Part shown: positions 3,617 through 29,100 of the stretch, piece after piece
Layout: every line of letters begins with the position of its first letter
How positions within the stretch are numbered: position 1 is the stretch's first letter
Origin: Apus apus
Lineage: Eukaryota > Chordata > Aves > Apodiformes > Apodidae
DNA: 64,000 nt
NCBI RefSeq assembly: GCF_020740795.1
Contig: NC_067294.1
Span: 17,179,001-17,243,000, forward strand
Direction: 5' to 3'
Made by a program: the position numbers and the translations under genes
The notes under the pieces: generated by a model
Told to the model about the DNA's origin: nothing
The model's input: only the letters and a program-made list of their open reading frames with translations
The model's database searches: none

Positions 3617-3701
3617 CAAAGTGCTTGCGGGGTTTGGGGCTGGGGAGAGCCCGGGGACAGCGCGGAGCAGCAGTGGGCTCTGCTGGTGGAGGCGGCCAAC
3701 T

Positions 3702-3930
3702 GCAGGCAGGGGGCAGGCAGGGGGGTGCAGGCAGGGGGGCAGGCAGGAGGGGTAGCTAGGGGGGCAGGCAGGGGATGCAGCTATGGGGTGCAGGCAGGGG
3801 GTGCAGGCAGGGGGTGCAGGCAGGGGGTGCAGGCAGGGGGTGCAGGCAGGAGGGGCAGGCAGGAGGGGTAGCTATGGGTGCAGGCAGGGGGTGCAGCTAT
3901 GGGGGGCAGGCAGGAGGGGCAGGCAGCAAG
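3702..3930. repeat. G-rich minisatellite, about 13-bp unit
   Basis: The array repeats a unit close to CAGGCAGGGGGTG, with variants such as CAGGCAGGAGGGG and interruptions containing AGCTATGG. There are roughly 17 units on the + strand. Runs of three to six G recur about every 8-13 bases, so the G-rich strand could form G-quadruplexes. It has no coding meaning, although it leaves open frames of Gly/Gln/Ala/Arg repeats in two frames. Confidence 0.9.
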
Positions 3931-7164: not shown

Positions 7165-9957
7165 ATGGTGCTGCTGAGCTGCTCTGCTCTCCACCTGCCA
7201 GCCCTCTGGTGGTACCTGTTCCTCTGCGCCGACGCCCAGGAGGTGGCCACCTTCACGGTGCGCTACCGGGTGTTCGAGGAGGTGCCGCCGGGAACGGTGA
7301 TAGGGACCCTGGCCCAGCACTTTGAGGGGGGTGGGAGTGGGGAAATGGCAGATGCCTTCCAGCTGATGGAGACCCCCGGGAGGTTCCCGCTGTGCGTGGG
7401 GAGCGGGGACGGGGCGCTCCGCACGGCCGGGCGGGTGGACAGGGAGCAGCTGTGCCGGCACAGCGAGCCCTGCTGGGTCTCCTTCGACGTGCTGGCTGCC
7501 CGGAACCTGGCTCTCATTCACGTGGAGGTCCAAGTGCTGGACATCAACGACCACGCGCCGCGCTTCCCCACGCCTGAGCTGGAGCTGGAGATGTCGGAGA
7601 GCGCATCCCTGCAGACCCGGATCCCCTTGGACCGAGCCCTGGATGCCGACGCCGGCCCCAACGCCCGCTGCTCCTACACCCTCTCCCACAACGAGCACTT
7701 TGCTCTGGAGGTCGTGTCCGGCTCCGACGGGACGAGGCACGCGGAGCTGGTGGTGGTGAGAGAGGTGGACCGGGAGCTGCGCTCCTCCTTCGACCTCGTG
7801 CTGACGGCCACCGACCACGGGGAGCCGCCGAGATCAGGTACCGCTTTAATTAAAGTCATCGTCCTTGACTCCAATGATAACAGCCCCGTCTTTGCAGAGA
7901 GCTCTTTGACGGTGGAGGTGAGGGAGGACGCTCTGCCCGGGACCCTCCTGGTGGTGGTGACGGCCACCGACCCCGACCAGGGCCCCAACGGGGAGATCGA
8001 GTACAGCCTGAGCAGGCACGCGCCGCCCGAGGTGCTGAGGGCTTTCGCCATCGACGCCCGCGCGGGCAGCATCAGCCTCCAGCACCCGCTGGACTACGAG
8101 GAGACCCGCGCCTACGAGCTGGACGTGCAAGCCCGGGACTTGGGTGCCAACCCCATTCCAGCCCACTGCAAGGTCCTGGTCAAAGTCCTGGATGTCAACG
8201 ACAACGCGCCCGAGGTTCACGTCACCTGGGCGGCGCGGGTGCCGGTGCTCTCCGAAGCCCTCCCCAAGGACAGCTTCGTGGCTCTGGTGACAACCAGCGA
8301 CCCCGACTCGGGCAGCAACGGGCAGGTGCACTGCTCCCTCAGTCAGGGGCACGAGCACTTCAGGCTGAAGAAGACCAACAGCCACAGCTACGTGCTGATG
8401 ACCAACGCCACGCTGGACAGGGAGCTGCGGGCCGAGTACAACCTGACGCTGGTGGTGCAGGACCATGGAGACCTCTCCTTGGCCGTGCTGAAGCACCTCA
8501 CCATCTGCGTCAGCGACGTCAACGACAACGCCCCGACCTTCGAGAAGGCCACCTATGAGGTTGCCATTGCTGAGAACACTGAAGCACCTGCCTCCTTGCT
8601 CACCCTCCAGGCCACCGACCCCGACCTGGGTTTCAATGGGAAAATCACCTACAGCATCCTGGACTCCTCCACTTTGGGTCTGGTCTCGATCGACCCCGCC
8701 ACCGGGGAGGTTTTTGCCCTCCAGGCTTTTGATTATGAGCAGATGAGGAGCCTGGAGTTCCTGGTGACTGCGGAGGATGGTGGTCACCCCAGGCTGGCAT
8801 CCAATGTCTCCATCAGGGTGGCCGTGCTCGACCGGAACGACAACGCGCCCGTCATCACCTCGCCGGCGCTGGTGGGAGGCACAGCCACGCTCTCTGTCCT
8901 GGTCCATGAGGAGACAGGGTGCTTCTGGGTGGCCCCTGGGAACGGGAGCACCCAAGGGATAGCAGCAGTGGCCAACGCAACCCTCACGTCGTGTGCTGGT
9001 GCTCCCTTCCTCTTCACCATCGCAGCCCGGGACGTGGACTCTGGCATCAACGGGGCTCTCCGGTACGATCTGGCGGGTGGGGATGACTCCGGGCTCTTCA
9101 TCCTGGATCCCCTCTTGGGGCAGGTTTTCCTCAATGCCAGCAATGCCAGCAGCCTGGCGGGCAGCCAGCGGGAGCTGGTGGTCCGGGTGAGCGACGGGGG
9201 GGACATCCCCCTGCACACCCTGGCCCGGATCCACCTCGTTTTCCGGCGCCACGGGGCGTTCTCCAAGATCTCAGCCTGGGAACCGGGACAGCCGAGCCCC
9301 TCGGTGGTGGCTGTTATCTGCCTGGCTGCTCTCCTGGGGGGGTGTCTCCTCCTCTTGGCTTTAACCCTGTCTCTGCAGAAGAAGGAGAAGAAGGACAGCA
9401 TGGCCTACAACTGCAGGGAGGCAGAAGATGCCCGCAGGCAGCAGCAGCAGCAGCTCAAGAAGCCACACAGGCAGATCCAGAAGACCGACATCCACCTCGT
9501 CCCCCTGCTCCGGGGCCGGTCCCGGGAGGCTGAACCCCCCCATCCTGGCCAGGAAGATCTGCCCCCCATGCCACAGGGATCCCCACAACCTCCCCTCCAC
9601 CTCACCCCCACTCTCTACAGGACCCTGAGGAACCAGAGGGCCCAAAAAGACTCGGACGAGCAGGTGGGGACCTTCAACCTGCCCATCCTGCAGCGTCGGC
9701 CCTGCCAGCCCCACAGACCCAAAAATTCAGCCAAAGAGGCTGCCAGCCCCCCGGATGCACCCCCACACTGCCAGAGCTTGGTGAAGCCGCCACAGGGGGC
9801 TGTGGAAGAGCCACCTGGCCAGCCCGTGGTGGCTGGGGGACCTGAGCAGCCCCAGCCCCACCAGCACATCCTGAGGAGCCTGGTCCGGCTGTCGCTGGTG
9901 GCACTGGCAGAGCAGAGCCCCACCGGGGAGTTCGTCATGGAGTCACCCCCAGTGCAG
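7165..9957 (+). CDS. PCDH12: PCDH12 coding exon 1: signal peptide, EC1-EC6, membrane helix, most of tail
   Basis: This one uninterrupted exon encodes 931 residues, as is typical of protocadherins, whose whole ectodomain sits in a single exon. It ends in phase 0 after the codon CAG, followed by the donor GTAGGA. A CAG run at about 9437-9453 encodes five to six glutamines just inside the membrane. The reading frame continues into the intron to 10134, but the splice after SPPVQ is fixed by exon 2, which begins QISQLL. Confidence 0.95.
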
Positions 9958-12900
9958 GTAGGAGCTGCCCCGTGTGCTGCTGGAGGTCTGGACACTCCCC
10001 TGTCCCCCCACCCCGTCGTTCCTCACCCAGGTCTTGCCCACCTTGGGGTGGTGGGAATGCTCAACCTGATGGTCTTGGGTTGGTCGCTCCTGCCAGCCCT
10101 GGGCAGAGGTGCCCCAGGGGTTGGGGCTGTGTAGGATGGAGCCCACCAGGAGCAGGGTCTCCCTATGCCCACCAGGATGCCCTGGGAACTGGGTGGAGAA
10201 AGGGTGTGTGACAAGGGGGAAGGGGACAAATCCAGTGCTCACTGCCCAGGGGAACGTGGGGGGACGGGGGAAGCGCGGGGGGCAAGGTGAGCTGCAGGGG
10301 CCCTTGTTTTCCCACCCCATGGGGATGCTGAACCATCTGCAGCAGGAGGAAGTGCTATAAAAAGGCTGGGGGAGGAGGGGGGGGGTGGGTGGTCGGAGGG
10401 GACGTCCTGGCAGGAAGCAGCTTGAGTGGCCACCACCAGGGCTCAACAGGCTTTTCCTGCCTTGCAGCAAATCTCCCAGCTGCTCTCCTTGCTGCACCAG
10501 GGCCAGTTCCAGCCCAAAACCAACCACAGGGGAAACAAGTACACGGCCAAGAACGGCAGCAGGTAGGTCAGCAGCTCCAGCCCTCTCCTCTGTGTCCCTC
10601 TGCTTCAGCCTCGCTGGCCCCAAAAGCCTCCAAGGGCAGCAGACACACAAGGTAAAACCTTGTCATCTGTTCTGTGGACCTGACTTTGGGGAGGAAGGTC
10701 CTCCCTTCAGGAGTGGCTGGGCTCCTCTGGTCATGCCTCCCCGTTGGTACCCAGCTGCTGCCTCCAGGACAAGAGGAAATGCTCTCAAGTTGCTCCAGGG
10801 GAGGTTTAGATTAGATATTAGGAGAAATTTCCTCACTGAAAGGGTCATCAAACACTGTCTGGGCTGCCCAGGGGGGTGGTGGTTGAATCACCATCCCTGG
10901 GGGTGTTTAAAAGCTGGGTAGATGAGGTGCTGAGGGACATGGTTTAGCTCTGGACTTGGCAGAGTTGGGTGAGACTTGGCAGAGTCAGGTTATGGTTGGA
11001 CTCAGTGATCTTAAAGGTCTTTTACACCCCGAACCGTTCTGTGATTCTGTGATAGGGCTGCTCTTTGCCTCCTTCCCAGGGCACACTTGGTAGTTCCTTC
11101 CATACCTACCTGAGCTCCCTCACAGCCATGAACCATCTGCCCATCCTTGCTAGAGGAACACCAATGTGTCCATCTGTGATGAAAAGGTGCCCTTGTGAGC
11201 ACAGAGGGTCCAGCTCTGGAGGCACCAGCACAAGGATGAGTTTTTTCATGGCTCTGGGTACTTCCTTAGAGATGCTGTTGCCTGTTGACATGAGTTCAGG
11301 GCATCTGTCCCCAGGCCAGGAGGCCAACTAAGGGTGGGAAGGACTGAGATATCCCCACTGAAGATGTTCCCAGTGACAAACTTCATGGCATTCCCATTAA
11401 ATTGGGCTGTTGACATCTCTGGGTGAAGCCCCCTGAGGGTGCCAGGGCTTCACCACTGCCCTGCCATGTTCCCCTGCCCAGGCCATGGGCAGACACAGCC
11501 AGCACTGCCTTTCTCACCATCATCTCCACCTGCTGAGGTTGGAGAGGGAGGGAGAGCTGCCCTGAGGCAGAGTTGGGCTCTGATGCTTCTCTCCTGGTCC
11601 TGCTCACGGGCAGCTCCTCTGAATCCACAGGGAAGAGTCACCAGCTCCTTGTCTGTTCCCTGCAGGAGGATAAAACCTCTCTCGGGCAAGAAACATGGAG
11701 CAGCCCCACGTGTAGCCCAGCACCAGCTGGGGCCCAGTTCCCAGAGGGTCTGTGGAACCTCCTGATCACGTCTTGTGGTTTTTAAAATGAAAACCCATAA
11801 AGCTCCTCAACTGGTGGGGCCCAAAAGGCTTGTGCCTTTGGGGCTGTGCATGGTGCCCCAGGAGGACACCCGTACCCCGGCGCTGGGTCATTCTGGGGGT
11901 TGGGGGATGAGGACCAGCACCTTCACCCTGATGTTTGGGGCAGGGTGGTGCTGGTGCTGAGGTGTGACCTGAGTTCTGTCCCCGGGGCAGGGCTGGAGGG
12001 CTGGACACGGATGGTCTGAGCACCAAGGACAGTGGGCACGGGGAGAGCGAGGCCGAGGACCGAGACTCCGACTGCGGCTTCGAGCTCTCTGTCCAGCAGC
12101 TGGTGGGAGAGGAGCTGGAGACCCTCCTGGAGCCACAGGCAGGTGAGGTGGCCTCACTACTGGGAGCACACTGGGGCTGGTGGGGGGGGGTTTCAGTGGT
12201 GGGGTCTCCTCAAATAACACACTGAGGCCATTCAGAAGAGAAAACTGGCCGGGCTGCAGCAAGGAGGGGACGCCTCGTCTCCGAGGGTGGCTCTGATGCT
12301 TGGGGCAGCATCTATGGACCCTCCTGTGCTGTTGGGACCAGGCAGTTTACATCAAAGGGACTTGCTGAGCTTCATGTTGGATTTTGGTTGTGTTTAATCT
12401 TGGTAGGTCTTTCCTCCCATGGATGTATGTGCTGTTGTTGAGGTCACCTGAGAGGTCGACCTCTGTTGGTGTGTGGGGGTGAAGTCCAGTTTAACAATGC
12501 CCTGTGTGACCCGCTTCCCATCCTGACCTGAGACCCTTCATTTCATGGTCTATGTAGAGTGAGAAAGGTGAAGAGGTGCCCTTCTTGAGCCCCTCATGAT
12601 GCTGTAGACCCTTTGAGCCCTGTTAGGCTCCTCCTTCCTACCAGGCTGAACTAGTCCCATCTCCTGTGATTACTAGTGCATCTTTATTGAGGTGTGGTGA
12701 CCAGCATAGGATACATCTACACTGTATAAAGAGGTCTTCTGGTGGCATGAGGTCTTCTGGCTTGTTCTTCAAGGACAGGGGGCAACGGGCACAGACTGGA
12801 GCACAGGAGGGTCAAGTTAAACATAAGGAAAAACTTCTTTCCTGTGAGGGTGACAGAGCCCTGGGCCAGGCTGCCCAGAGAGGTTGTGGAGTCTCCTTCT

Positions 12901-15900
12901 CTGGAGACATTCCCAACCTGTCTGGATGTTCCTGAGGGATCCTGCTCTTGCAGGGGGGGTGGACTCGATGATCTTCAGAGGCCCCTTCCAACCCTGACAA
13001 CTCTATGACTAAATGACCTTCCTTTGTGAGGAAGATTCTTTATTCCTACCCTCCCTTCCTGGCTTTTAACACTTGTTGAAAGAACCTGACAGAACCTGGC
13101 TGTGAACTCAGGGCCAGCTCAGGAGCCCTGTGAGCCTGGTTGCTGCTCTTCTGCAAGCTCAGGTGTCCCCTGTCAAGCAGGGCTCTTCCTCTACCTCTTC
13201 CAAAGACACCAACCCATTTGCAAAGTGCAGTTCCCTGCTTAACCAACACCACCTCAGCCCCTGCCCAAGTAGCAGCTGCTCAGTTATCTGCTGAGTCTCC
13301 CAGATATTGATTTTTATGGATTTGCCCACCCCAGATCCACAGATTTAGAACCTCATGTCACAACTTCTACCTCCCTTTCCTCTGCTGCTGTATTCATTTG
13401 AAGCAGTAGTTAACGAACAGCAGTTAATAAACCAAGCAATTTCATATCTGAGTTCCTCCAGCACTCCAGGGTGAACACCATCTGGGCCTGACATTTTCTG
13501 CATGTTCCTTTTATTGATTTGTTCTGAAAAAAAAAAAATCTCTTCTCCTGGCATTTCAATTTGCAAGAGTTGGGCTGACTCATGTCCTGTAGCAGAAATG
13601 TCTTTGTGGAGCCTCTGAGCTCCTCCACAGGTTGAAGAACTCCTTGAGGTTTGCTGTTTCATTCCAGAGTTGGGCATTTTTCTGTGCCCTTTCTTTAGAG
13701 GGAGATCCAGGCTGCTTCTCTCCGTTTGCTTCTTGCCCTTTTTTATTCCAGGAAGGAGCAAAGGAAGGCAAGGCTGGGTGAAATGAGAGCTGCAAAGCTG
13801 CTTTGGGTTTCCAGGCCCTGCAGCCAAGAGCAGGGAGTGAAGAGGCTGCTCCATCCCATGGAGGACCTGCCACACACTGTCCCAGCAAAGGGACTGGTGG
13901 AGTCCTGGTTTCATGCTGGGCTGGCAATTAAACTAATGGCAGATGCTCTCTATTAAACCCTCATGATTAAGGGAGAGAGGCTTAGGGGTTGGAAACTGAA
14001 GTGCACTGCTTTGAGACAACAGGGGTGAGGAGAAAGAATGAAAAATGTGCAAATCTGTAGAAGAGACTTAACTGAAAAGTAGAAGTACTAGGAAGAAAGA
14101 AGTTCTTCCTCTCCTGGCTCAAACCAGGACAACCTGCTCAGCAGATCTGTTTGGATTGAGTCCTGCTCAGACAGTGGCATCCTAGAAAAATAGTGTTAAG
14201 AGGCAGGCATGTCCATGAGGTGCCATCTCCCGTGCTTCTTGGATCTGCCAGGAAAAAACCCTTGTTTGCCAAATTGCTGGAATGCCAGGGAGCAGGGGCA
14301 GTGCAGGCTGGAGGGGCTTCCTGCCCTCAGCAGTGCTGGACATGACAGCAGGGCCTGCCCTGCCCCAGCGCTCAACAGCTCCCTGAGCCAGGAGCCCAGA
14401 CCTTCCTGAAAAGGCCAAGAGCTGCTGGCCTCCTTCCTCCTCTCCCCAGCACAAACAGAGAAGTGGACTTGACATCCGGAGAGGGAGGAAGGAAGCCTTG
14501 CTTGTGCTCCCGAGTGTGGGACCAGCTGGCTGAGCCTGTCTGGGGCTTTGTGCTCTTCACAGTGGGGAGAACTGAGCAGATCATCAGTCCCAGCAGCTCA
14601 GGGGTGTTTCTGCTGGGAGCCCCAGGGGAACTCTCAGCACTGTGACCACCTACTCCCCCACCAGAGAAACCAGGCTCACAGCAGCAGATGAGAGACAGAA
14701 CTTTTATTGCTTATAAAAACACACCCCCCCTTGCTGAAACACCATTCAAAGAAGGCAGTGAAGAGTCATTAAATTAAAGATACCCAATTATAAGGTTTCA
14801 TGGGCACAGGAGCCTCAGCCTGAGCAGTTTGCTGCTGTGCCCTGCTCCAGAGTTGCAGCATTGAAACATTCAGGGAATGCAATGGCTTCTTGGAGGCTGG
14901 GGAGGAGAAAACTGTGGATGTTTCAGAGTAAAAATAGGGGATCTCAGCTTGGGACATCCCTTCAGGACCAGTCACTGTGACTGCAAGAAAATACTGAGAC
15001 TGTAGAAAGAAATCCTGGAAGTTTAGCAACACCGAAGAGTTTTGAGGCTTCAGCTGAAACAAAAATCTAAGTGATGTGTCTGCCCTTCTCTCCCTGCCAG
15101 GTCTGAATCCCAATCCCTCACCCCCATCCCACCCCAGGACACAGTTGTTTTTTGAGAGAAAAAGGCCTAATTATGTAGTTGGCTGAGGAAGGAGACTTGT
15201 CTCAGGGCCAGACTAGCCCCAGACTGAGGACGACACGTCCCAGCCTGGGTATCCATCATCTTCTGGAAGCAGCAGAAGTGCAGGAGTGTGGAGACCCTCC
15301 TTTGGGAGGTCACTAAGTCAGAGGCACAGAATTATTACAAGGACACCAGCTCTTGCCCTCAGACTGGGACTGCAGTGGGGTGTTTTCCTCCCAGATCAAA
15401 GTGATTTGGTTTGTTGCTGTCTGACTCTTCAAGTGTTTCCCAAACCTGGTGGCTGCTCCGGAGCTCCCTGTGGTTCTTGGTTACCCTTTGGGAATGGAGC
15501 AACGTGGGGTTGGGCATCACCTGCCCCAGCCTTGTTTACCAACTGCAAAGCTCAGCCTTAAAAACAAGGACTCCATTTCCTTTCCTGCTGTCTGATGAGG
15601 AAGCTATTCCAGGCTCACCCTGCTACGGGGTCCTTCCTTTTATTTCCAGCTTATGTTTACTTGTGGACAGTTATAATCACTTCTTCTTTTGCCAACACTA
15701 TTTTAAGCATAAAGATTTCCTTTGTTGGTGCTTATCTCATCAGCATAATGATGTTGCAGTCAGATCTCCAGGGAGCATTGGCTTCCTTAGGCTGAGCAAT
15801 CCCTACCACTTTGGGTCATGGAAGCCTGGATTCACCCCTGGTTTCATCTCAATAGTTTTCTCTGCACTGCTGCCATTTTAGCTCCTCTCCCCCACGGATG

Positions 15901-17116
15901 GATAATCAACTTGGTATGTAATATTCCTAACCAGGTCTCACCAGACCTAGTAACAACACCACAGCTGTGTCTTCAGGCCAAAAGGGAATACCTTGACCAG
16001 CAACACTGTGTGATTTCCTTTGCTCATTTTTGGGGCAGAATCACGTTAGTGGCACATTAAGGAGCCTGCAGCCAACACACCCACACCAGGCTCCCACTGC
16101 TCCTCATCTGCTTCCAATTGATGAACAACTACTTTATAGCTCCATTTTTTTTTTTGCTACTAGTCTTCAACCACCCAGCTGTGCATTTTACAATCCAGAA
16201 TTTCATTCTACTTCTCTTGTTACTGTTTTCACAATAACCCATTTCTTTCCAGTCCCAGAAGGCCTGCTTAGCAGCAACTTCCCACCCTAGAGTGCTCCTG
16301 AAGGGAAGTCCACCACTGACCTTTCTTCTGTCCAATACTTCCCCCTTGAAAGCCTTTCCATTGTCCTCTCCCCTTCAGCCACTCCTAAGCCTTCACTTTC
16401 TCTGGCTTTGCTAACACTTTAACAAAGCACTACTGGAGGCTGCAGCAGATGAGAAAGCAAAGTGAGCTGAATGGTTATTATATAAAAACAAAACAAAAAT
16501 CCCAGTAGTTTTAAAGCAGTTCTAGCTTGTTTGCTTGGGTTTGTTGTTTTATTTAAGCTGTTGGTTTGACTGCTGGGAGCTTATCTCTAGACCTGTTTAC
16601 AATCAGTGCTCTCAGAGCTGAGTTCAGGAAGTCTCTGCGTTTATAATTTGGGGTTGTTTTGTTTTTTTTCCTTTTTCTCCCTCCTCTTCTCTCTCCTGCG
16701 GTCTCCTCTAGCCCACATCTCACTGACAGTTCTTGATTTCACTCCCTCCAGAGCTGGCCCTCAAGAGGCTGACTGCTGCTGACCCAGCCTGGGTGGCTCA
16801 ACTCTCCTTGCCCCTCACCAGCAGCTACAAGGACAACGTCTTCTCCCCCGACTCTCCTCATTCCCCTCAGGATGAGGAAGCTGCCAGGCAGGAGAAACCA
16901 AGGACCTTTGAGACCTTTGGCAAAGGTGCTGGGGCTGACTCCAACGCTGCTGGGACAAGACTGGCCAGCACTTTCCTTTCAGAGATGAGCACCCTCTTTG
17001 AAATGATTTTGTCCCAGAAGGTCCAAGCTCACAACGAATCGGGCTCGGGGCTTCTCCGGCAGCTGTCGGCACGTGGGAAGGGCCTTGGACTGGAGGACAG
17101 TGCTCCTGCTCTGTAG
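7165..17116 (+). CDS. PCDH12: Protocadherin 12 (VE-cadherin-2), four coding exons, 1134 aa
   Basis: PCDH12 is a single-pass adhesion receptor of endothelial and trophoblast cells. Coding exons are 7165-9957, 10468-10562, 11991-12142 and 16752-17116; all junctions are GT/AG and the phases join without a stop. Residues 1-25 form a signal peptide. Six cadherin repeats follow, with DxND-type calcium motifs at about 126, 235, 343, 451 and 556 and DxDxGxN motifs opening repeats 2-6. A membrane helix spans about 713-737. The cytoplasmic tail holds the blocks [36 protein letters not shown] and [17 protein letters not shown], which I recognise from mammalian PCDH12 and which separate it from other non-clustered protocadherins. 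Human PCDH12 is 1184 residues. I chose ATG 7165 because a signal peptide follows at once and its context is good (A at -3, G at +4). In-frame ATGs at 7075 and 7114 would add a poorly conserved N-terminus. Confidence 0.95.
9958..10467 (+). other. PCDH12 intron 1
   Basis: A GC-rich intron of 510 bp with a clean donor and a CCTTGCAG acceptor. It contains a TATA-like word CTATAAAAAGG at about 10355 and a G run at about 10376-10386. I see no transposable element or alternative exon. Confidence 0.7.
10468..10562 (+). CDS. PCDH12: PCDH12 coding exon 2
   Basis: A 95-base exon encoding [17 protein letters not shown] and then a basic stretch, which is the most conserved part of the PCDH12 tail. The acceptor is CCTTGCAG and the donor AG|GTAGGT. 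It enters in phase 0 and leaves two bases, completed by the first G of exon 3 to give Arg963. Confidence 0.93.
10768..11054 (+). mobile_element. CR1-type LINE 3' end in PCDH12 intron 2, diverged subfamily
   Basis: The text runs from GACAAGAGGAAATGCTCTCA through GGTTGGACTCAGTGATCTTA to TTCTGTGATTCTGTGAT. It has CR1 3' architecture but belongs to a different subfamily from the abundant copies. The rest of the 1.4 kb intron (11055-11990) shows nothing recognisable. Confidence 0.8.
11991..12142 (+). CDS. PCDH12: PCDH12 coding exon 3
   Basis: A 152-base exon encoding an acidic stretch ([14 protein letters not shown]) followed by [19 protein letters not shown], the counterpart of the LSVKQLLEEELSSLL region I recall from the human protein. 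The acceptor is GGGGCAG and the donor G|GTGAGG. One base is left over for Glu1014. Confidence 0.92.
12770..13016 (+). mobile_element. CR1-type LINE 3' end, older subfamily
   Basis: The sequence from GGACAGGGGGCAACGGGCAC through CCCTGGGCCAGGCTGCCCAG to the GATCTTCAGAGGCCCCTTCC tail follows CR1 3' structure. It differs from the young copies and lacks a clean octamer repeat. Confidence 0.75.
13330..13560 (-). mobile_element. Ancient CR1-type LINE reverse-transcriptase fossil
   Basis: Read on the - strand, the translation includes [20 protein letters not shown] followed by [12 protein letters not shown]. This matches the conserved segment before the fingers of CR1-family reverse transcriptases (the K-S-P-G-P-D-G-I-H-P block). 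The copy is short and flanked by unrelated DNA, so it is an inactive fragment in the PCDH12 intron. Confidence 0.7.
14703..14708 (-). terminator. DELE1: Candidate DELE1 polyadenylation signal
   Basis: AATAAA on the - strand lies about 60 bases after the DELE1 stop codon, followed by a GU-rich stretch (rich in TGG and GGTGG) at about 14650-14670. The 3' UTR would be very short. A longer isoform ending further left is possible. Confidence 0.55.
14769..14980 (-). CDS. DELE1: DELE1 coding exon 11 (C-terminus)
   Basis: The acceptor TTTTCTTGCAG is followed by TC, which completes the G left by exon 10 to give Val. The frame then reads VTVTGPEG and later [19 protein letters not shown], which lines up with the TVTG and FSSP-SLNTLL stretches I recall from the human C-terminus. 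It ends at TAA (14769-14771). The exon lies entirely inside PCDH12 intron 3. Confidence 0.85.
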
Positions 17117-20100
17117 GCAGCTTGCTGGCTGTGAGAAGGAGATCAGAGTCAGTTCAAGCTTTGTGTTTGGGGGGCACACGTGGGCTTTAACAGGATCATT
17201 GTACCCTCTGTGTCTGGGCTGATCACGACAGGCACACTTCTCCCTTTGCCTCACCTCGTTACATTCCATGACTCTTTTCACCTTTAGTTCCCTTCTACCC
17301 GTCTCTTCTTGCCTTCCTGACTCTCCTGCTCTTTCACCCTCATCTTTCACTTCACCATCATGCTCACCCAACAGGAGGAGGGTCCTCTCCTCCCAGGGCG
17401 GGCTGATCAAGGGGGGGGTGTTGCTAGATCAACACAATCAGCTCCATCCCCATGATCACAGACTGCACCGGGGACGATGACATATCACTCATGGACTTCA
17501 CAAGGTGCTGTAGAGTTGGGCTCCAGGATCTCAGTTCTTATTTAAATAAACCAGTTTTTTTTCTAACAGCATCATCTCTGGAACAAGGTGCTCTACAGAT
17601 GACATCACGATGTATCTGCAGAAGGCCTGAAATGGCCACTCTGACAGGGAGCTTTTGCCTCTTGTCTCCCACTGCTCCTTTCAGCTTTTGTGGTTCTATC
17701 ACCGTGAACTTGGCATCCTGTAAAACGCCCCAAAAAGCAGCACTGCTGCTCTGGCAACTCTGCTATGGCTGCCTTAGGTGCCCATAATTTCCTTCTCCAT
17801 GCTCTCTTTTAAGGCCATTGGATTGTGGTGTGCAGTCCTTCCCCAGAAGCAGACAGCAGATGGTTGGAGTCTGCCAAAGGTAACCTGGGAAAAGGGAAGC
17901 CTGAAAACACTGTTTTGAAATATTCCGCTTCAACCATATTCTGGGCTTTCACTTTGATCTGGATGTATGTGAGCTGTAAGATAATTTTATGATCATAATA
18001 CGTGTAGGAAAACCAAGCTACAGCTCTCAGGGAGAAGGACACAGGTGGTGTTAACCACGGGGCTTGGCATTCCCAGAGACTGGAAGGACAGCAGGGCCAC
18101 CAGCAGCTGGAGTGCACATGTAGGCTCTTCTGGATTGTGCCCACGTAGGGCTCTTCTGTACCACAGCCTGTGCCTTCCAGCTAGGATATTAAACACCAGA
18201 ACAAGTCTGGGAGAGGCTGGCAAAGTGGCTGTACAGCTGGGAGGGAGTGGGATGGGCCATCCCCTCCTCTGCTGGCAGTGGCCAACTCACTGCAGTGCTG
18301 GGCACACACTGCTTGCTTTCCTTCACCATCTTTGCATTACACACACTCCACTCCCTTCTCCACAGAATCCATAGCTCTCAACACAGGTTTCTCCAAGTCT
18401 AATCTCATGGTTTGGGTCATCATGCCTTTGGGTGGTATTTTTAGCTTTTATTTGACTGTCAAGTTCATAGAATCCCAGCCTGGTTTGGGTTGGAAGGGAC
18501 CTTAAAGATCATCCAGTCCCAACCCCCTGCATGGGCAGGGACACCTCCCACCAGCCCAGGTTGCTCCAAGCCCCATCCAACCTGCCCTTCAACACTGCCA
18601 GGGATGGGGCAGCCACAGCTTCCCTGGGCAACCTGGGCCAGGCTCTCCCCACCCTCACAGCAAAGAATGTCCTCCTAATTTGTCACCTAAATTTCCCCTT
18701 TTCTACTTTTCAGCCATTCCCCCTGGTCCTATCACTCCCTGCCCTTGTCAAAAGTCCCTCCCCAGCTCTCTTGTAGGTCACATTGAAAAAGACCAGGCAG
18801 CACAACCCAGCAGACATGATCCTGGAGCATCTCAAGAGTTTCCTATGTGTGCTCCTTTCCCATGCAGCTAGAGGGGACAGTGGCCTGCATTGTGCACACA
18901 CACACACACACCCCCGCGTGCCACAGACAATCACACAGATCATTTAAAGCAGGGTAAATGAAAGAGTTCTCCCTTTCTGTTCCTTTTGGGACCAAATGGC
19001 AAAAGCAACTGAGGAAGATTCCCCCAGGTAAACTTTGTAATATCCAAAATACCCACTGCTGGAGGCACCAAGACCTTTACTGATGTCCTCATCTCTGGCA
19101 GTGAACTAGATGGAGGGATCTGCCCCAGCCTTCTGATAGAAACCACTTGCTGCTTTGTTTCACAAACAAAACAGGCTCCTGCACCAAAACAATGACATCC
19201 AGCCAAGGTCTGCCTGAGATGCAGCTGTGCAAACCACCAGGGAGGGATCAGGGTGGCTGGGAGGAGAGGCAGCCCAGCAGGATTCCTCTGCATCCTGGGA
19301 ATGCACACAGAGGACACACAGACACAGCACAACCTCTGGGAAGTCACTTTTGATGTGCATGTGGAAGGACAAGCTTTGCACAAAAATACACTGTGAGGAG
19401 CAGATTGAAAAGGAGACAAATTCCTCTCCCTTGGTTCAATTTCCTGATTCTGCAAACTGCTTTCAACCCCCACCCCCATCCCTCAATCCTTGCCCCCCTC
19501 CTGTCCTGAGGAATGCGTAAGCATGCTGTGGATTATCACAGAATAGGAAATCCACCCGAGGAATTTCCTGCTAATTGTATCCTGTTTGATAAAGGAAATG
19601 GTCTAAGAAAGCTTGGTCTGAGGGGAGAGAGAGAGAACAGACTAGGAGGACAATCAATCAGATGTGCTGAGCTCTGGCTGTGCCCCTCCCTTGCTGAATG
19701 GAGCCCACAGCAAGTTCAGGATGGGGCCATTGCCTTTGTTTTCCAGAGCCTGACACAAAGCACCAGAGCACCGTGGCTACAGGAAGCTGGATAGTTTGTC
19801 CAGATGCCCTTGAACCAGTTTAAACTGGTGTGGACAAATGTCTCTTTCCGGATTCAGCTGCCCCAGTGGAAGAAATGATCATCCCAGCTGCCTGCTGCTG
19901 CCTGCTGGGAGCATCCCTCACCCACTGCAGGGGAGAGGAGGTGCTGTGCTTAGCAAACATGTCAAATCTAAATTTTAAAGCAAACCTTGCTCATTGTAAC
20001 CCAAAGGGGTGCACCCATGGGAGCAGCTCACTGCCAGAGCTGGAGGAAAAACAACCTGGGAAGGGGCACTGATGGTGGTGCAGAATGGCAGAGGACAGCT

Positions 20101-23100
20101 TTGCTCTCACCAGCACAGCTGGATCCATAAGCTACATCCCACAAAAAGCCTCATCATCAGAATTCACTCTCTGGCTTGCACAGGTTTGAAAGCAGATTAA
20201 ACTGCCTCCATAGCAATGCAGAGACCCAGCTCAGCTTGTGCTGGTAGAAGAACCACTGTGGGAACAGCCAGCCTTGAGGGGAGGTCCACTTGTCTCTGAG
20301 GGTGCAGGCCAGGCCCAGCACAGAGTCTGCTGCCAACATCACCATGTGGTGGCTTGTAAACCTTGACCACGTGCAGGGTGTGCAGGGCTACTGGAATTAC
20401 AGCCCCCCAGTCATATCACTATGGGAGTTCATAGGAAACTGTAGCAGCATGAGAAAGGTCTTTGTATGGGAAGGTAGAGGGCCAGAAGACATGGTGCTGG
20501 AGGAGATGTCACAAGGTTTGTTCTAAGAACCCTGGTATTTAAAAACAGCTCCTGCTCCACGAACAGCAAGCTTTTTCTTTCCACTCCCTGCTAGCCTGCT
20601 TGCAGCCCCACACAGACTGAGAAGGGCTGCTGTCCTTCCTGCTGGAGTCACTCACCTGCTGGTGTCACCCACCTGCTGCTCTAGTACCAGCAGAGGTGGG
20701 GCTTCAAGCACTGCAGTTCCCGTGGGGTTGCCCTGTTCCCAAGGGCACGGCTCCACCCTGCACTGCTGAGCACCATCATGTGGAGTCCATCTGCACTCCA
20801 GGAGTGGGGCAGGGAGAGGGAGGATTGTCTGGGCTGGCTGGCCTGGAGGCCTGCAGGAACACGGTCCATGGCCCAGAAACAGGGGCTGGAGGAAGAGGCT
20901 CTTATTCCAGGAGAGAATGGAGGTTTTGTTTGCATATCTGAAAGTACACGAAACCAAGATATTAATGACACACCACACTATGGAACCAGCTGGTAAGAAG
21001 TGGAAAGAACTGAGGAAGAACTGCTCTGGAGACGGGCTGAAAGAGTTGGGGTGTTCAGCCTGGAGAAGAGAAGGCTCCAGGGAGACCTGAGAGCACCTTC
21101 CAGTGCCTGAAGGGGCTCCAGGAAAGCTGGGGAGGGGCTTTTCACCGGAGAGCAGAGTGGTGGGACAAGGGGTGATGGTTTTGAGCTGGAAGAGGGGAGA
21201 TTTAGATCAGACATCAGGAAAAAATTCTTCACCATGAGGGCAGGAAGGCATTGGAACAGGTTGCCCAGGGAGGTTGTTGATGCCCCTTCCCTGGAGGGGT
21301 TGAAGGGCAGGTTGGATGGGGCTTGTGCAGCCAGGGCTGGTGGGAGGTGTCCCTGTTCATAGAAGGGGGGTTGGAACCTGGCGATCCCGAAGGTCCCTTC
21401 CCACCTTAACCATTCTATGATTCTATGAAGAAAAGTGCTCTTTCTTCTTGCCATGGCTCTGCCCTACCTTTTCTCTGGCAATATGGGCTCTGCTTCTATG
21501 GAGTTACTCCCCCCCAACCCTCATCCCCCTGCCCCTGGTACCTTCCACCTCCGCTTCCAACAGGCGCAGTCTCTCCTGAGCGTTGGGGTTCCCTGCAGCA
21601 GCTGATTGCTGGTAGTGCCTCAGAGCTTCTGCCAGGTTCTGCTGCACTCCAAGGCCCTTCTCATAGCAAACACCCACGTGGTACCTGCTTTGGGCATCCT
21701 AGCCACAGGAGAAAGCACAGCAATCAGCTCCACACCATGGAGAAGTGAGGACAGCAGATGAAAGGAGAACAGAGAGTCTTTAACACCTTCTTTAGAGCTT
21801 ACTGCTCTATCTTTGGTCACCTCCTTGAACGTTTACTCCTGTCCCTCAGACCCCATCTTCACTAATATAGACCCTTCTCTGAGCACATAGTGAGGCAGAA
21901 TTTTTTTAGAATCATAGAATGTTTTGGGTGGGAAGGCACCTTCAAGATCATCCAGTTCCAACCCCCTGCATGGGCAGGGACACCTCCCACCAGCCCAGGC
22001 TGCTCCAAGCCCCATCCAACCTGCCCTTCAACACTGCCAGGGATGGGGCAGCCACAGCTTCCCTGGGCAACCTGGGCCAGGGTCTCACCACCCTCACAGG
22101 GAAGAATTTCTTCCTAATGTCTCACCTAAACCTCCTCTCTTCCCAGCTGTCTCTTGACTCAGCTCCTACATATCCCTTCCCAATTAAATTCACCAATTTC
22201 CCTTTGACATCCAGGTCTGCGTCACGGGAACAAAGGAACTGCTGTCTCTGCAGAGCATCCCAATTGTCTCAGGGGTCAGAGCCAACAGGACCTGGGCAGC
22301 CTTGACTGCACCCACATCCTGATGACGCCCAGACTCTGAGCACGCCCTGAGGTTCCTATCACAGTTCATGAGAAGTCTTGTAAAAACATAACAAATGCCA
22401 GAGAGGCACTGGCTGCCAAGGGCTGGAAGGTTGCCCTGGGCAGCATCAGGCCATCAGGACTGACACCACATGCCACACTATCTCACTCAGCCCCACCTAA
22501 TTATATTCCAGAAGAAAAACTCAAGCAGCAGAGATGATGTCAAGCAAGTAAGTGCTAGAGAAAAAGCACCTAAGCTGCTCAGACATGTAAGTGCTGAGAG
22601 TGAAGTAGAAAGTAGAGATGTCATTGCAGGTGGGTCAGTGGAGCCAAGTCCAAACCTGCGATATGTGTCTATTGTCCTTGGGATCCAACAGGAGGAAAAG
22701 GGTCTCACAGAGAGCAAGAAAGCAGGATGGTGGTCCTGAAGACACTGGAAAGACCACATGGGCTAGTGGGCACATGGACCTTTCCAGCCAAACCCCAGCA
22801 ACTTAACTTGAGGAGTAAGACTGCCAGAAACATGATTTAAACAAGGCTTTGCAGAGAAGAAAAAAAACAGAAGGAAGCAAGTGTCAATTTTAATAAAGCC
22901 ATGAAAAAAGAACATATTGCAAGTGTTGCTGTCTGGGATGTAGCTGGTGGAGGAAAGCGAAGAACTCAGTGAGTGGGTGCTTTGCAAAATGTTGCAAATC
23001 TCAGTTTATGACAGCAGTAAACTTCTTTAGAGATGAGAGAAACGTCTTGAAGGATTGGCACTTCAGATGTGAGAAGAGACAGGGTCAAAGAAGTGTGAAG

Positions 23101-26100
23101 TGTTCCACTAGCCCTCTCCTAGCTGAGGAACACCTCAAAGCCAAGACCACAAGGAGAAGAGACCCCTAAATTAGCATGGCATTAGTGACCGTGATATGCT
23201 TTGAAATCTGAAGGTCAGGCTCAGCTCTCCAGCAAGCCCCTTCAGAATGTTTTTTCTCTTCTGTGGTTGCACACATCAAATAAGGGAGGATACAAAGTGG
23301 TAACCAAAGCAAAAGGTAGTTCTCTGAAGCATCCTTGTGTTTGGAAGAACATTTGTCAGAGCTTCCTCCTCAGCTCTAGCACAGAGCAACAACCTGAGAC
23401 AGAAACACTGAACCCATGACTTTTTGTGCCTGTCTTCCTTGTTTTGGAGCTGTAGCTAAGTAGCACTGTCCTTGCTTCACCCATACCCAGTATTCTTTCA
23501 ACTAACTAAACATCAATTCACACTCCAAGGTAAGAGGAAAAGAACAAACTCATGGAGCCCTTCTCCCTAGCAGAACATCCCAGGGAGCATATGAACCAGC
23601 CATCAAGGAGTGGTGTGGTAGATCCACAGCCAGCACCCACTGGGAAGCAGAGATGGGGAAAGATGGACTGGGGTTTGGAAATTGTCATGGCTGTGACCAA
23701 AACACTGATCCACCCCTGGGACCTGCAGTCACCTGCCAGATTTTCTGTTGGGAAGGGCTTGCTAGGCATTCAGTAAATAGCACTCATGTTTGATGAGATA
23801 ACTCCTTGTTACACTGCACAGCACACACAGCTGGCATCAGGCTGGAAGAAAAGAGTCAAAGATGCAGCTTATGGGAGATCTTTAGCAGATTTGGAATTAA
23901 ATGCTTTATCATGAGCTATGAGCTGCTGTGGCCAGTCAGGTCTGGTCCCACCAGCCATTTGACAGTGCCTGGATTCTTAAAAAGGGGGTGAAAACTGACG
24001 TGGCAAAGTTTCCAAGTGATGTAATGTCATTCAGAGTGATCAAACTTGCTGTTAAGAATTAATTAGAGAAGGTGTCACAAGACTAAGAGTGGGCAACACC
24101 ATCACAGAAGAAAACTCAGTGCTGACAAATGCAAAATAAGTGCTTGTAGAAAGAAATTTGTGTGCCACTGTGATAGTTCCCTCAAGGCACCAAATCACTG
24201 CTCAGTGGCAGGCAAAAGGACAGGCAATATTGGGAATTATTGGAAAGAAATACAGAACAAAGCAGAGGATGTCATTATGTGAGATCCCTGGCATGCCTCC
24301 TCAAGTCCAGTTTTAGCCCAAGCATCCTAAAATGGTCAAAGGAGAATTAGAAAAATAGAGAAATGACTGACAAGCAAAATGGAACAGCTTAACTACGTGG
24401 AGAGACAAACTAAACTAGCACTCTGCAGCCTGCAAAAGAAATGACTCAGAGAGGACACACTAAAGGCTGACAGAATCAGAAGTATTAGCCAGAAGAAAGG
24501 GAATAGCTATTCATTATTTTCCAGTACACAAAAGCTGTGGGAACTGAAGTTAAAATGAGCAAGTTCTTCAGGAAAAAACCCAAACAACCCTGGCTATTAT
24601 AATGCAGTGCAAGCTGAAAACCAGTGAACAATGTCACAGTGTTGTAAAGACACAGAGCTGTGGGATGCAGACACCTGGCTGCAAGACATGGGATATCATA
24701 CTCCTACAACTGGAAGTGCTGGTGAGCATTCAGGAGCAGGACTGTGCTGAGACTGTGGCCCTGCCCCTCAAAAAAAAATAAGCCTGGGTCACTTGGAGAA
24801 AGTTCAAAATTGTTGGGATCTAGACAGCATGAGGTGTGAGGAGAAACTCAAACAACAGGGGAAGGCTGAATGGGGACTCAAGTATTTTAAGTACCTTAAA
24901 GGTCCCTGAAAAGAAACAGAAATAGTAATTTCATCCTCTCTGTAGAAGAATAAGGCAACAATTTTGAAGAACAGACTGAAGATAGACACAACAAAGTTCT
25001 CAAAATGATACAGTAGTGAAAAGAGTTTGACTGAAGAGGGTGTAGATGCTCCACAATGTGAAACCTGTAAAATTATACTAGAAGAATATGAGCACTGGTG
25101 CTGTAAGAACTACTCCAACCCCACAGGGCTGTTTCTACATTTCTGTTTTGTAGAGGCTGTGCCCCAGGGCCTGTTTCCTCTCCCAGGTGCACCAGGGCTT
25201 CACTCTGTCCTTCCATAAAATCCTGACACTTGCTCCCATTTCCAAGAAGCCCTGGAATCTGCCACCTGCAATGATCATAAAGTGAGAACAGTCACAGCTC
25301 ACAAAGAGGTTACTTACCCCATTCTTTGCTGCCAGCAGCAGGTACTTCAGGCCTCTCTTTTCCTTAGGTTGCAGCCCCCTCATGTAGAACACTCCAAGAT
25401 AAGCCTGGGCCTGCAACAAAACCACCCGGGTTCAAATCAACCAGGATTTCTCCCCTTCATTGCTCCAGTTCTTTTATTGATTTTGCAAGTTGCTGACAGG
25501 CCAGGGTGGCTGCAGCAAGAGGATTGTGCTCAGTGCCCTGCCTGCTGCAGAGCCTGCTGAGAGAAAGGGGGGATGACCCAAGAAAAATCAGTCTGACGTG
25601 AGAAACACAGCAAAAAAATCACATTTTATCTCTAAAACTCGAAGATACATGCAGTTAACATCACCACACTAACACTGAAAAGACCCAGAATAGGGTTTCT
25701 GACTGCACTGGGGAAGTTGGAGCCAAAGAACAGCTCCTACTCGTGAGCTGTCCATCAGATCCAGCAGATGCACTTCCAGGAACAGTGTGCTACATGAGGC
25801 ACAGGCACTGCCAGGACAACTGGCACTGGCAGCAGAAGATGGCACATGCCTAAATGCATCTCCTGAAGAGTGGGAAAGGAGGGGAGGGTACACAGATCCA
25901 TGTGGATGAATCACCTTGAAAAGTCACAGATACAATATCAGGATCAGTTCTCATGGAAGTTCCTCCACCAAAGCAACCTGTACTCTAGGAATAGTGAGGA
26001 GATGAAACACAAAAAGCTGCATTTTCAACTGTGGGTCAGGTTTCCTGAGCCAATGACTAATCTGGGTGTCTAATCTAAGAGCCACATTAAAAAGCCCAAC

Positions 26101-29100
26101 AGCAAAACAGACAAACAACACTGCTGACACAGTGAGTACCTGGCCATGTCCCACGTGCAGGCAGGGATGTCTCCCATGCACTGTCAGGAATATAAATATC
26201 ACAGAATCACAGAATGTTGGGGGTTGGAAGGGACCTCTGGAGATCATCTAGTCCAACCTCCCTGCCAGAGCAGGTTCACCTGGAGCAGGTTGCATAGGAT
26301 GGCATCCAGGTGAGTTTGGAATGTCTCTAGAGATGGAGACTGGGCAGCCTGTTCCAGTGCTCTGCCACCCCCAAAGTAAAAATGTTTAGATGGAACTTCC
26401 TATGTTCAAGTTAGAGCCCAAACCTTCTTGTCCTGTCACTGGGCACCACTGAAAAAAGACTGGGATATGTAGGAAAAATCCTGGTTCCAGTCCCACAGAT
26501 GCTGCTTTCCAGGATGTCCTGTGGTTCAAATCCTTCAGACAGTGCTCTCTCTGCTGGCTCTGGCCTATGAACTCCCACACTGTGGTCACTAACCTCTGTA
26601 ATCCCAGCCATTGCTGCTTGCTCCAGGAAAACCACTGCCTTCTGCTGCCTGTCCCACTCTTCCTGGGGTCTGTGGCACAAGAGGTACCTGGCGTAGCGGT
26701 ACTGGGCCATGGGGTGACAGCTGCTGGCTGCCTGGGAGTAATAAAAAGCTGCCTGGGAGAAGGAGAAACATACTCATGTGATTCAGGTAATACAAGCCCT
26801 CCAACAGGACCTGACTCCCCCCTTGGCCAGGACAAGCTACACCTGTCTGGATCCACCAGGAGCTGCACACCCTTCCCCCAGCAGCTCTCCCAGCTGAAGA
26901 ACAGGGGATTGTTTCGGGGAGGCAGGGGACTGAGATGCCACCAGAGCCCTCCAACCACGCTGCCTTCTCCAGCCCCAACTCCCCGTGCTGCAAGGGGGGT
27001 GCAGCACCCCAGCTCCCTCCGTGCCGACCGGGATCTGCACCGTGACTCCAAAGGAGCCGCCTCTGCAGATCTTCCCGGCGGCAGAAGCTGCAGGCGCCGG
27101 CTGCACGCACTAGGTGGCAGCTGCAGTTCAGGCACCCGAACAGGACGGGCTGGAGCTGGAAAGAAGCCCTGGGAGGTGCAGCGGTGTTATAAACACGGTA
27201 ACATGACAGGTTTCTCCTCGGCACTCTCCTGGGTGCTAGTAGCACAGCCTGTGTACCTAGGAGAAGAGTTCAGAAGCTATGAGAAAGGGGGCTCAGGAGC
27301 ACATCTCCGGGGGGAGCTCTGACACTGAAGCCAGCTCTGCAAACCTGCAGTTTGCATTCTTTCCAGCAGCTTCTAAAGAGACTTCAGAGACTGTCACACC
27401 CAGGCAAAAGGAGAAAAGTGCCTGTGCACCTCAGCAAGCCCACTCTCCTGCTCTGGGCTGCAGAGGTGCAGCCCTACAGGACGTGGATACCTTTTCCAAG
27501 TCTCTCTCGGTGCCTCTGCCGTGCTCGTAGCACAGACCCACGTTGAACTGGGCTTTGCTGTAGCCTCGGTCTGCTGCCAGCTTGAAGCAGGTGTAGGCTA
27601 TCCTGGCATGGCCTGCCCTCATGCTTTCAACCCCTGAGAAGAACAAAATGTCAAACCAGGGATAAAAAGAAAGCAGGCAGAATGCAGCCTCGAATGCAGG
27701 AACCTCCCCCTACCCTGCTCCATTCCTGGCTGGCTCACCACCCCTCACTCCACAGGACCAAAGTTTCCACAGGGGAAAAAGGGCAACACTGCCTTTTAGG
27801 AATTCCTTGTAGGACCATGGGCTAACACAAGGTATGGTTTGCAGAGAAGCATCTTGCTTTTTTAGGGCTGCAACTAGTGGTGTATATAGGGCAGGGATTG
27901 TTGTGTTGTTTTTTTTTTCCTGGATCATTGCATCTTCCTTCTGCTCTTCTTAGAGGTGCAATCCTGTAATTGCTTTTTTCTGCTTGCCAGGAAGACTGAG
28001 ATCTCAGACAATGAAAAGGGATACAGGGATGTGTCAGCTCGTGGTGCAAAAAAGACAAGAGATGGCTCAATTTCCAACTACAGATGTCAGGACAACAGTG
28101 CAGGCTTCAACCAAGCCTGGATTGAAATATGCTGATATAAATCAGGTGGCAGGATGGAACAAAGGGCAATAAATCTCTCCAAGCACAGTTGAAATTGCTG
28201 AAAGGAGGTTTCAGCTTGGGTATATGCTATCCCTGCCTTTGCACAAGACCTGCAACAACTTGGAGGTCCTTCAAGAAGAGATATGTGTGATTTAAGGACA
28301 AAACCAAATCCGAGTCCACGTTACCAAGGATATTCAATGCAATGGACATGTCAATCCGGAAAATCTGCTGCAACTGGAAAGCAGCTTCCTCTAAATGCCC
28401 TCGCTGAGCTGGGTCACCCTGAGGAGTTAAAAGAAGAAAGCTATGAAGACAGCAAAACCATACAAACCTTCCAGGAGATTCTCTCTGGGAAACTGAGCAG
28501 TGAGACATTTGCACTGAGCTATAAGCTATCAGAGGGTGATGTAATCTGCTGTCATGTGCTCACCAAAAAAATCTCCCTTTCCTTCCCAGCTAGGGAAGCT
28601 GTGTGGACATTGCTGGCCTGCCCTCTGGCCAGGGAGCTTGGTGTAGCCTCTCAGGTGTCATCAGGCTTTTCAGAATTCAGCAAACACCCAACACGACTGC
28701 CGAGTTCCCCTTCTCACCCTTCTTCACCCTCCACATCATGCCAACAGCACAAACTGTCTCTGCCAACCCTGCACTGACATCTCTGTATATGCTTTACACA
28801 ACTCAAGCTGAGCCCATGCTGTCAGCTTACTGAGCACTGCAAGCTCCTAATAAAATCCTGCACAGCAGAGACTATGTCTTCTCCTCCTCGGTAATGAACA
28901 GTATTTTTTACTTGAGCACAGCTCTGGGAGGCAGATTAGCCCGGCCTGCAGCTTTGGCTTCCCAGCTTGTGCACACATTTGGTGCCACCGAGTGGCAGCA
29001 GTGCACGCTGCACATCAGCTGAGAGGCTTCCACGCTCGGGGAAGTCAGGCAGCAAAAATGTCCCCTGCCACCCAGCAGCTTCAGTGCTCAGCCAGAGCTT

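Follow-up and report, generated by a model that had tools for sequence, protein, structure and literature searches.

The protocadherin gene PCDH12 (plus strand) and DELE1 (minus strand) are convergent neighbors in the Apus apus genome segment analyzed here, a window of 64,000 nucleotides (nt) without any N on contig NC_067294.1, and their sequences make it probable that they are interlocked, the terminal exon of each lying inside the last intron of the other. PCDH12 intron 3 (12143..16751, +) houses on its opposite strand the likely last coding exon of DELE1, and DELE1 intron 10 (15000..21541, -) houses, again on the opposite strand, exon 4 of PCDH12. Under this gene model the last exon and 3' untranslated region (UTR) of PCDH12 would sit wholly within the last intron of DELE1, the last exon and 3' UTR of DELE1 would sit wholly within the last intron of PCDH12, and the two transcription units would overlap by about 2.9 kilobases (kb). 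A preliminary description of this DNA had proposed such an interleaved layout; its plus-strand component, PCDH12 exon 4, and the DELE1 exons down to 21542 are secure, and the placement of the DELE1 last exon at about 14999-14769 is likely but unproven.

To our knowledge, the human PCDH12 and DELE1 genes are merely adjacent and do not interleave. The interlocked region contains three repeat-like intervals (12772-13017, 18464-18776 and 21021-21436), which, like the others in the window, we take to be the interspersed repeat CR1, and neither terminal exon is covered by them.

PCDH12 and its last coding exon

The four coding exons of PCDH12 on the plus strand can be joined in frame through to a stop codon. 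Exon 1 (7165..9957), whose start codon was picked from several in-frame ATGs, encodes the cadherin repeats (Cadherin, PF00028, E value 1.9e-75) and the transmembrane segment, and ends in a donor at the 98.4th percentile. Splice-site percentiles are ranks among all GT or AG sites of the window, the underlying scores being built on general vertebrate base frequencies and usable as ranks only. Exon 2 (10468..10562; splice sites at the 95.6th and 99.6th percentiles) and exon 3 (11991..12142; acceptor at the 83.3rd) both join in frame, and exon 4 (16752..17116), which lies inside DELE1 intron 10, carries the stop. Intron 3 is flanked by strong sites, with a donor at the 99.9th percentile and an exon 4 acceptor at the 99.0th, and an AATAAA at 17545..17550 (+) is the presumed PCDH12 polyadenylation, or poly(A), signal.

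When the exon 4 peptide was compared with the whole genome, six candidates were scored and four matches with E values up to 1 were obtained: exon 4 itself at full identity, a second on contig C5 (E 0.002), and a further two, interrupted by stops, at E 0.9. The C5 relative is an open frame of 282 amino acids (aa) in the same genome (L003 1177-2025, -), which we take to be a PCDH19-like last exon. By eye, the blocks SxYxxNxFxP, FxTFGK and LSEMSxxFxxxL are common to both, and because of them exon 4 can be read as a protocadherin C-terminus, a reading that the sequence supports. The gene is the putative ortholog of PCDH12 rather than of another protocadherin, given its place beside DELE1 and a C-terminus taken to resemble that of human PCDH12. 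The predicted product joins the two features expected of a protocadherin, cadherin repeats and, through the C5 match, a protocadherin-type cytoplasmic tail. Collections of viral, bacterial and archaeal contigs yielded no confirmed relative of the exon 4 peptide. With its in-frame join, strong splice sites and single place of full identity in the genome, exon 4 stands where it had been proposed.

DELE1 and its candidate last exon

The repeat-coding part of DELE1 is equally firm. The best match of the spliced query was DELE1 (PDB 8d9x; E 5.1e-72, against 2.8e-37 for the runner-up), so that its closest Sel1-type repeats are those of DELE1, and Sel1 (PF08238) was found in the translation at E 2.2e-27. 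All on the minus strand, the repeat-coding exons include 27491..27633 (5' end set by eye at an AG), 26594..26752, 25318..25410 and exon 10 (21542..21698), which encodes the last Sel1-like repeat; the exons down to 21698-21542 can be regarded as secure. Exon 10 is 79% identical over 47 aa to human DELE1, and the same human stretch is also present in the PDB 8d9x alignment. That alignment shows that human DELE1 continues beyond the equivalent of exon 10 with a further tail (...LTVTGLKSFSSPSLCSLN...).

On sequence grounds, the minus-strand frame at 14980-14769 is the likely, though not proven, last coding exon corresponding to this tail. It is annotated here as 14769..14999 (-), with a 5' end at 14999, 14993 or 14980 and acceptors at the 96th percentile, and an AATAAA at 14703..14708 (-), the presumed DELE1 poly(A) signal, starts 63 nt away from the beginning of its stop codon. 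The peptide of 14980-14769 begins with VTVTG and has FSSP further on, TVTG and FSSP following each other in the order of the human tail. It has a single match in the genome, at this same place, and the pattern [LVIM]TVTG occurs only once across the six frames of the window. Two in-order 4-mers shared with the human tail were recovered in 18 of 20,000 shuffles of the peptide, and at least one 4-mer in 1403 of 20,000. A fair acceptor followed by an in-phase TVTG was seen in 4 of 3000 first-order Markov sequences, and one followed by an in-phase [LVIM]TVTG in 0 of 300 Markov sequences.

We also listed the alternative last exons, taking every minus-strand acceptor between 21460 and 12150 that scored at least 2 and led into an open frame of at least 30 residues in either donor phase. 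This yielded 53 in-phase candidates, 9 of which have an AATAAA or ATTAAA no more than 200 nt from the stop. These 9 all map to 12.7-15.06 kb, in PCDH12 intron 3, and 7 of them are versions of one frame; none of the signal-bearing candidates among the 53 lies to the right of the PCDH12 end.

Several observations weigh against placing the DELE1 last exon at 14999-14769. The TVTG and FSSP motifs were selected after the exon had been proposed, which makes the odds given above flattering, and two in-order 4-mers are also found in 24 of 12,762 overlapping 70-residue tiles of the window, at eight places, one of which is the candidate exon itself. Aligned locally to the human tail, the candidate does not reach significance: with gap costs 11/1 it ranks 458th among the 2463 stop-free stretches of at least 15 residues in the window, its score being reached by 1214 of 5000 shuffles, the corresponding figures with gap costs 8/1 being 264th and 591 of 5000. 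A search of the whole genome with the human tail missed the candidate and gave two matches elsewhere (E 1.45 and 7.5), and within PCDH12 intron 3 a minus-strand frame at 12974-12720, the top match of the window, outscores it against the same tail (55 versus 24). A nearby poly(A) signal is, moreover, nothing rare, being present within 150 nt in 4 of 20 candidates on the control strand as against 4 of 28 DELE1-strand candidates, and on its own this criterion is weak. Finally, both exon 10 donors are poor (21542 at the 83.7th percentile and 21549 at the 83.9th), and the strongest donor nearby, 21468 (98.6th percentile), lies 36 nt past the in-frame stop of the exon 10 extension. Since neither the alignment nor the genome-wide search singles the candidate out, its orthology to the human tail, which we consider likely but not proven, rests on the two short motifs and on position. 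The frame at 12974-12720, which falls mostly within a CR1-like interval, was rejected as an exon, and its score was taken as chance.

The exact junction is likewise uncertain. Joining 21542 to 14980, as first proposed, is in frame and uses a weak donor, and a link from 21549 to either 14999 or 14993 preserves that frame with about the same score, adding SQYFLA or YFLA ahead of VTVTG; because these junctions are equally in frame and similar in score, three positions are given for the start of the exon. A modest donor is also found at the DELE1 exon ending at 27491 (87.7th percentile).

Those weak donors bear on the chief alternative, a DELE1 ending in an extended exon 10 with a stop at 21506-21504 and a 3' UTR finishing to the right of PCDH12, in which case the genes would be ordinary, non-overlapping convergent neighbors and 14999-14769 would be no exon at all. 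The exon 10 frame does remain open for 14 codons beyond LLEAE before reaching this stop, and the contrast between two weak coding donors and a strong post-stop donor at 21468 points the same way. Such an ending would, however, drop a tail that is present in human DELE1 and turn the TVTG and FSSP motifs at 14.9 kb into a coincidence, and the first AATAAA or ATTAAA on the minus strand lies 3 kb further on, at 18452, beyond two CR1-like intervals. Even if the 21468 donor were used, the following exon could still be that at 14.9 kb, as UTR. We consider this ending unlikely and retain the interlocked layout. An alternative DELE1 ending through the 21468 donor, with a short and different tail, is possible alongside. 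It should also be borne in mind that, at this locus, reads without strand information, like automatic annotation, could shorten DELE1 or misassign its last exon.

Predicted overlap between the transcripts

With the cleavage sites set 13-15 nt beyond the two AATAAA signals, the predicted pre-mRNAs overlap by 2876 nt, in agreement with the almost 3 kb of complementarity between pre-mRNAs put forward in the preliminary description, and with the UTR ends so placed the mature mRNAs overlap by 0 nt. The overlap, conditional on the candidate DELE1 exon, is therefore an antiparallel, non-nested intron/exon overlap, and not an exon/exon cis-natural antisense pair, which would have a complementary stretch in its mature mRNAs. 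The accompanying suggestion that the splicing of each gene must skip the terminal exon of the other does not hold: splice and poly(A) signals act on their own strand only, so the opposite strand offers none and no skipping is needed. Each pre-mRNA would be spliced and polyadenylated by the signals of its own strand, and would carry the terminal exon of the other gene as plain intron. Mutual antisense control, which had also been suggested, is excluded at the mRNA level under this gene model because the mature mRNAs share no nucleotide, so that only nuclear or co-transcriptional effects are conceivable. Where one cell expresses both genes, we would expect co-transcriptional interference to be weak at most.

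It could still be argued that the overlap is a regulatory device, with the expression of PCDH12 and DELE1 coupled through antisense pre-mRNA or colliding polymerases. The 2876 nt of complementary pre-mRNA would favor it, and interference between convergent genes has been reported in yeast (PMC3900390). On the other hand, the mature mRNAs do not have a single complementary base, and no Rfam match at gathering score was obtained within 12-22 kb. Such a role would be compatible with the interlocked layout, and its likelihood is not to be weighed as exclusive of it; we regard it as quite improbable, and the functional proposal as unsupported. The arrangement is most likely a tolerated by-product of a change in gene structure. 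If the exon order does differ between birds and mammals, the locus would offer a natural test for the effect of complementary pre-mRNA in the absence of complementary mRNA.

Possible origin of the interlocked arrangement

If both terminal exons are orthologous to their human counterparts, and the human genes are indeed merely adjacent, it follows that the chromosomal order of these exons has been swapped between lineages. We put this forward only tentatively, as a possibility that falls short of even chances, and with the same reserve we suggest that local duplication followed by reciprocal loss, or else transposition of a small segment, may have exchanged the ends without breaking either gene. 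Tandem duplication with reciprocal loss is a natural route to an exchanged order. Replacement, in which a new last exon takes over from the old one in DELE1, is simpler and requires no rearrangement. Were the swap true, the two genes would be locked together, their separation costing an exon. A search for duplication remnants returned flank-to-flank matches with E values below 1e-3 only in CR1-like intervals, and a 34-nt direct match between 16242-16275 and 20574-20606 (E 0.002), which may be a faint trace of duplication or chance, is too weak to be taken as one. The RLTAAD of the exon 4 peptide recurs at 14672-14689, just left of the candidate DELE1 exon, as six residues at chance level (E 2.0), and among the 20 of 24 direct-repeat families listed none is longer than 39 nt.

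The replacement route amounts to a DELE1 last exon newly recruited from the PCDH12 intron in place of the old tail, with TVTG and FSSP being there by chance. This is a matter of origin, and is compatible with the interlocked layout. The overall alignment of the candidate exon to the human tail, which is not significant, is congruent with recruitment, and gene overlap has been described to arise through a change of the last exon, as in BLZF1-C1orf114 (PMC2151771). Against it stand the two motifs, occurring in the human order with TVTG opening the exon, a coincidence met in only 18 of 20,000 shuffles, and we deem recruitment rather doubtful. The swapped order relative to the presumed human layout might also be produced by an assembly error that misordered the two terminal exons. 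Yet the window is free of N, the 1.10-gigabase genome is assembled in 110 contigs, each exon occurs at a single place, and a simple inversion would have flipped the strands, which is not seen; this explanation can hardly be credited. If the exon order truly differs between birds and mammals, PCDH12 and DELE1 would constitute a datable example of convergent genes becoming interlocked and staying so.

Relation to known gene overlaps

The predicted PCDH12/DELE1 overlap belongs to a known vertebrate class, the non-nested intron/exon overlaps, for which Makalowska et al. (2007; PMC2151771) give counts of 150 for chicken and 160 for human. As in that class, the neighbors overlap exon against intron; here the overlap is reciprocal, involving terminal exon and last intron on both sides, and the class counts consulted are not split in this manner. 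The same work (section 10) describes a changed last exon as a route to overlap between neighbors, and its BLZF1-C1orf114 pair resembles ours in overlapping at the 3' end, there through a changed last exon. The new 3' end of that pair carries an Alu in primates, whereas the DELE1 exon, which the repeat-like intervals do not touch, appears to be coding. POU5F1 and TCF19 (PMC8493703) are likewise opposite-strand neighbors with overlapping structures, but they have two exons and the enclosed intron common to both strands, and PCDH12 and DELE1 show no exon-exon overlap. More generally, most gene overlaps reported for human, mouse and fly involve convergent, antiparallel pairs (PMC2330155), and convergent overlap is the commonest different-strand type in human and mouse, with estimates that vary by study (PMC2335118).

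A literature search, with subscription papers and genome annotations outside its reach, found papers on the general class and, judged by title or abstract, none on a PCDH12/DELE1 overlap; the publications that name both genes are, by title, not on overlap. In the horse, both are named within one region (PMC6402180). A query for RNF14 gave a best match of E 0.86 in the window. To the left of PCDH12, a minisatellite at 3701-3926 comprises about 18 copies of a G-rich 13-base unit.

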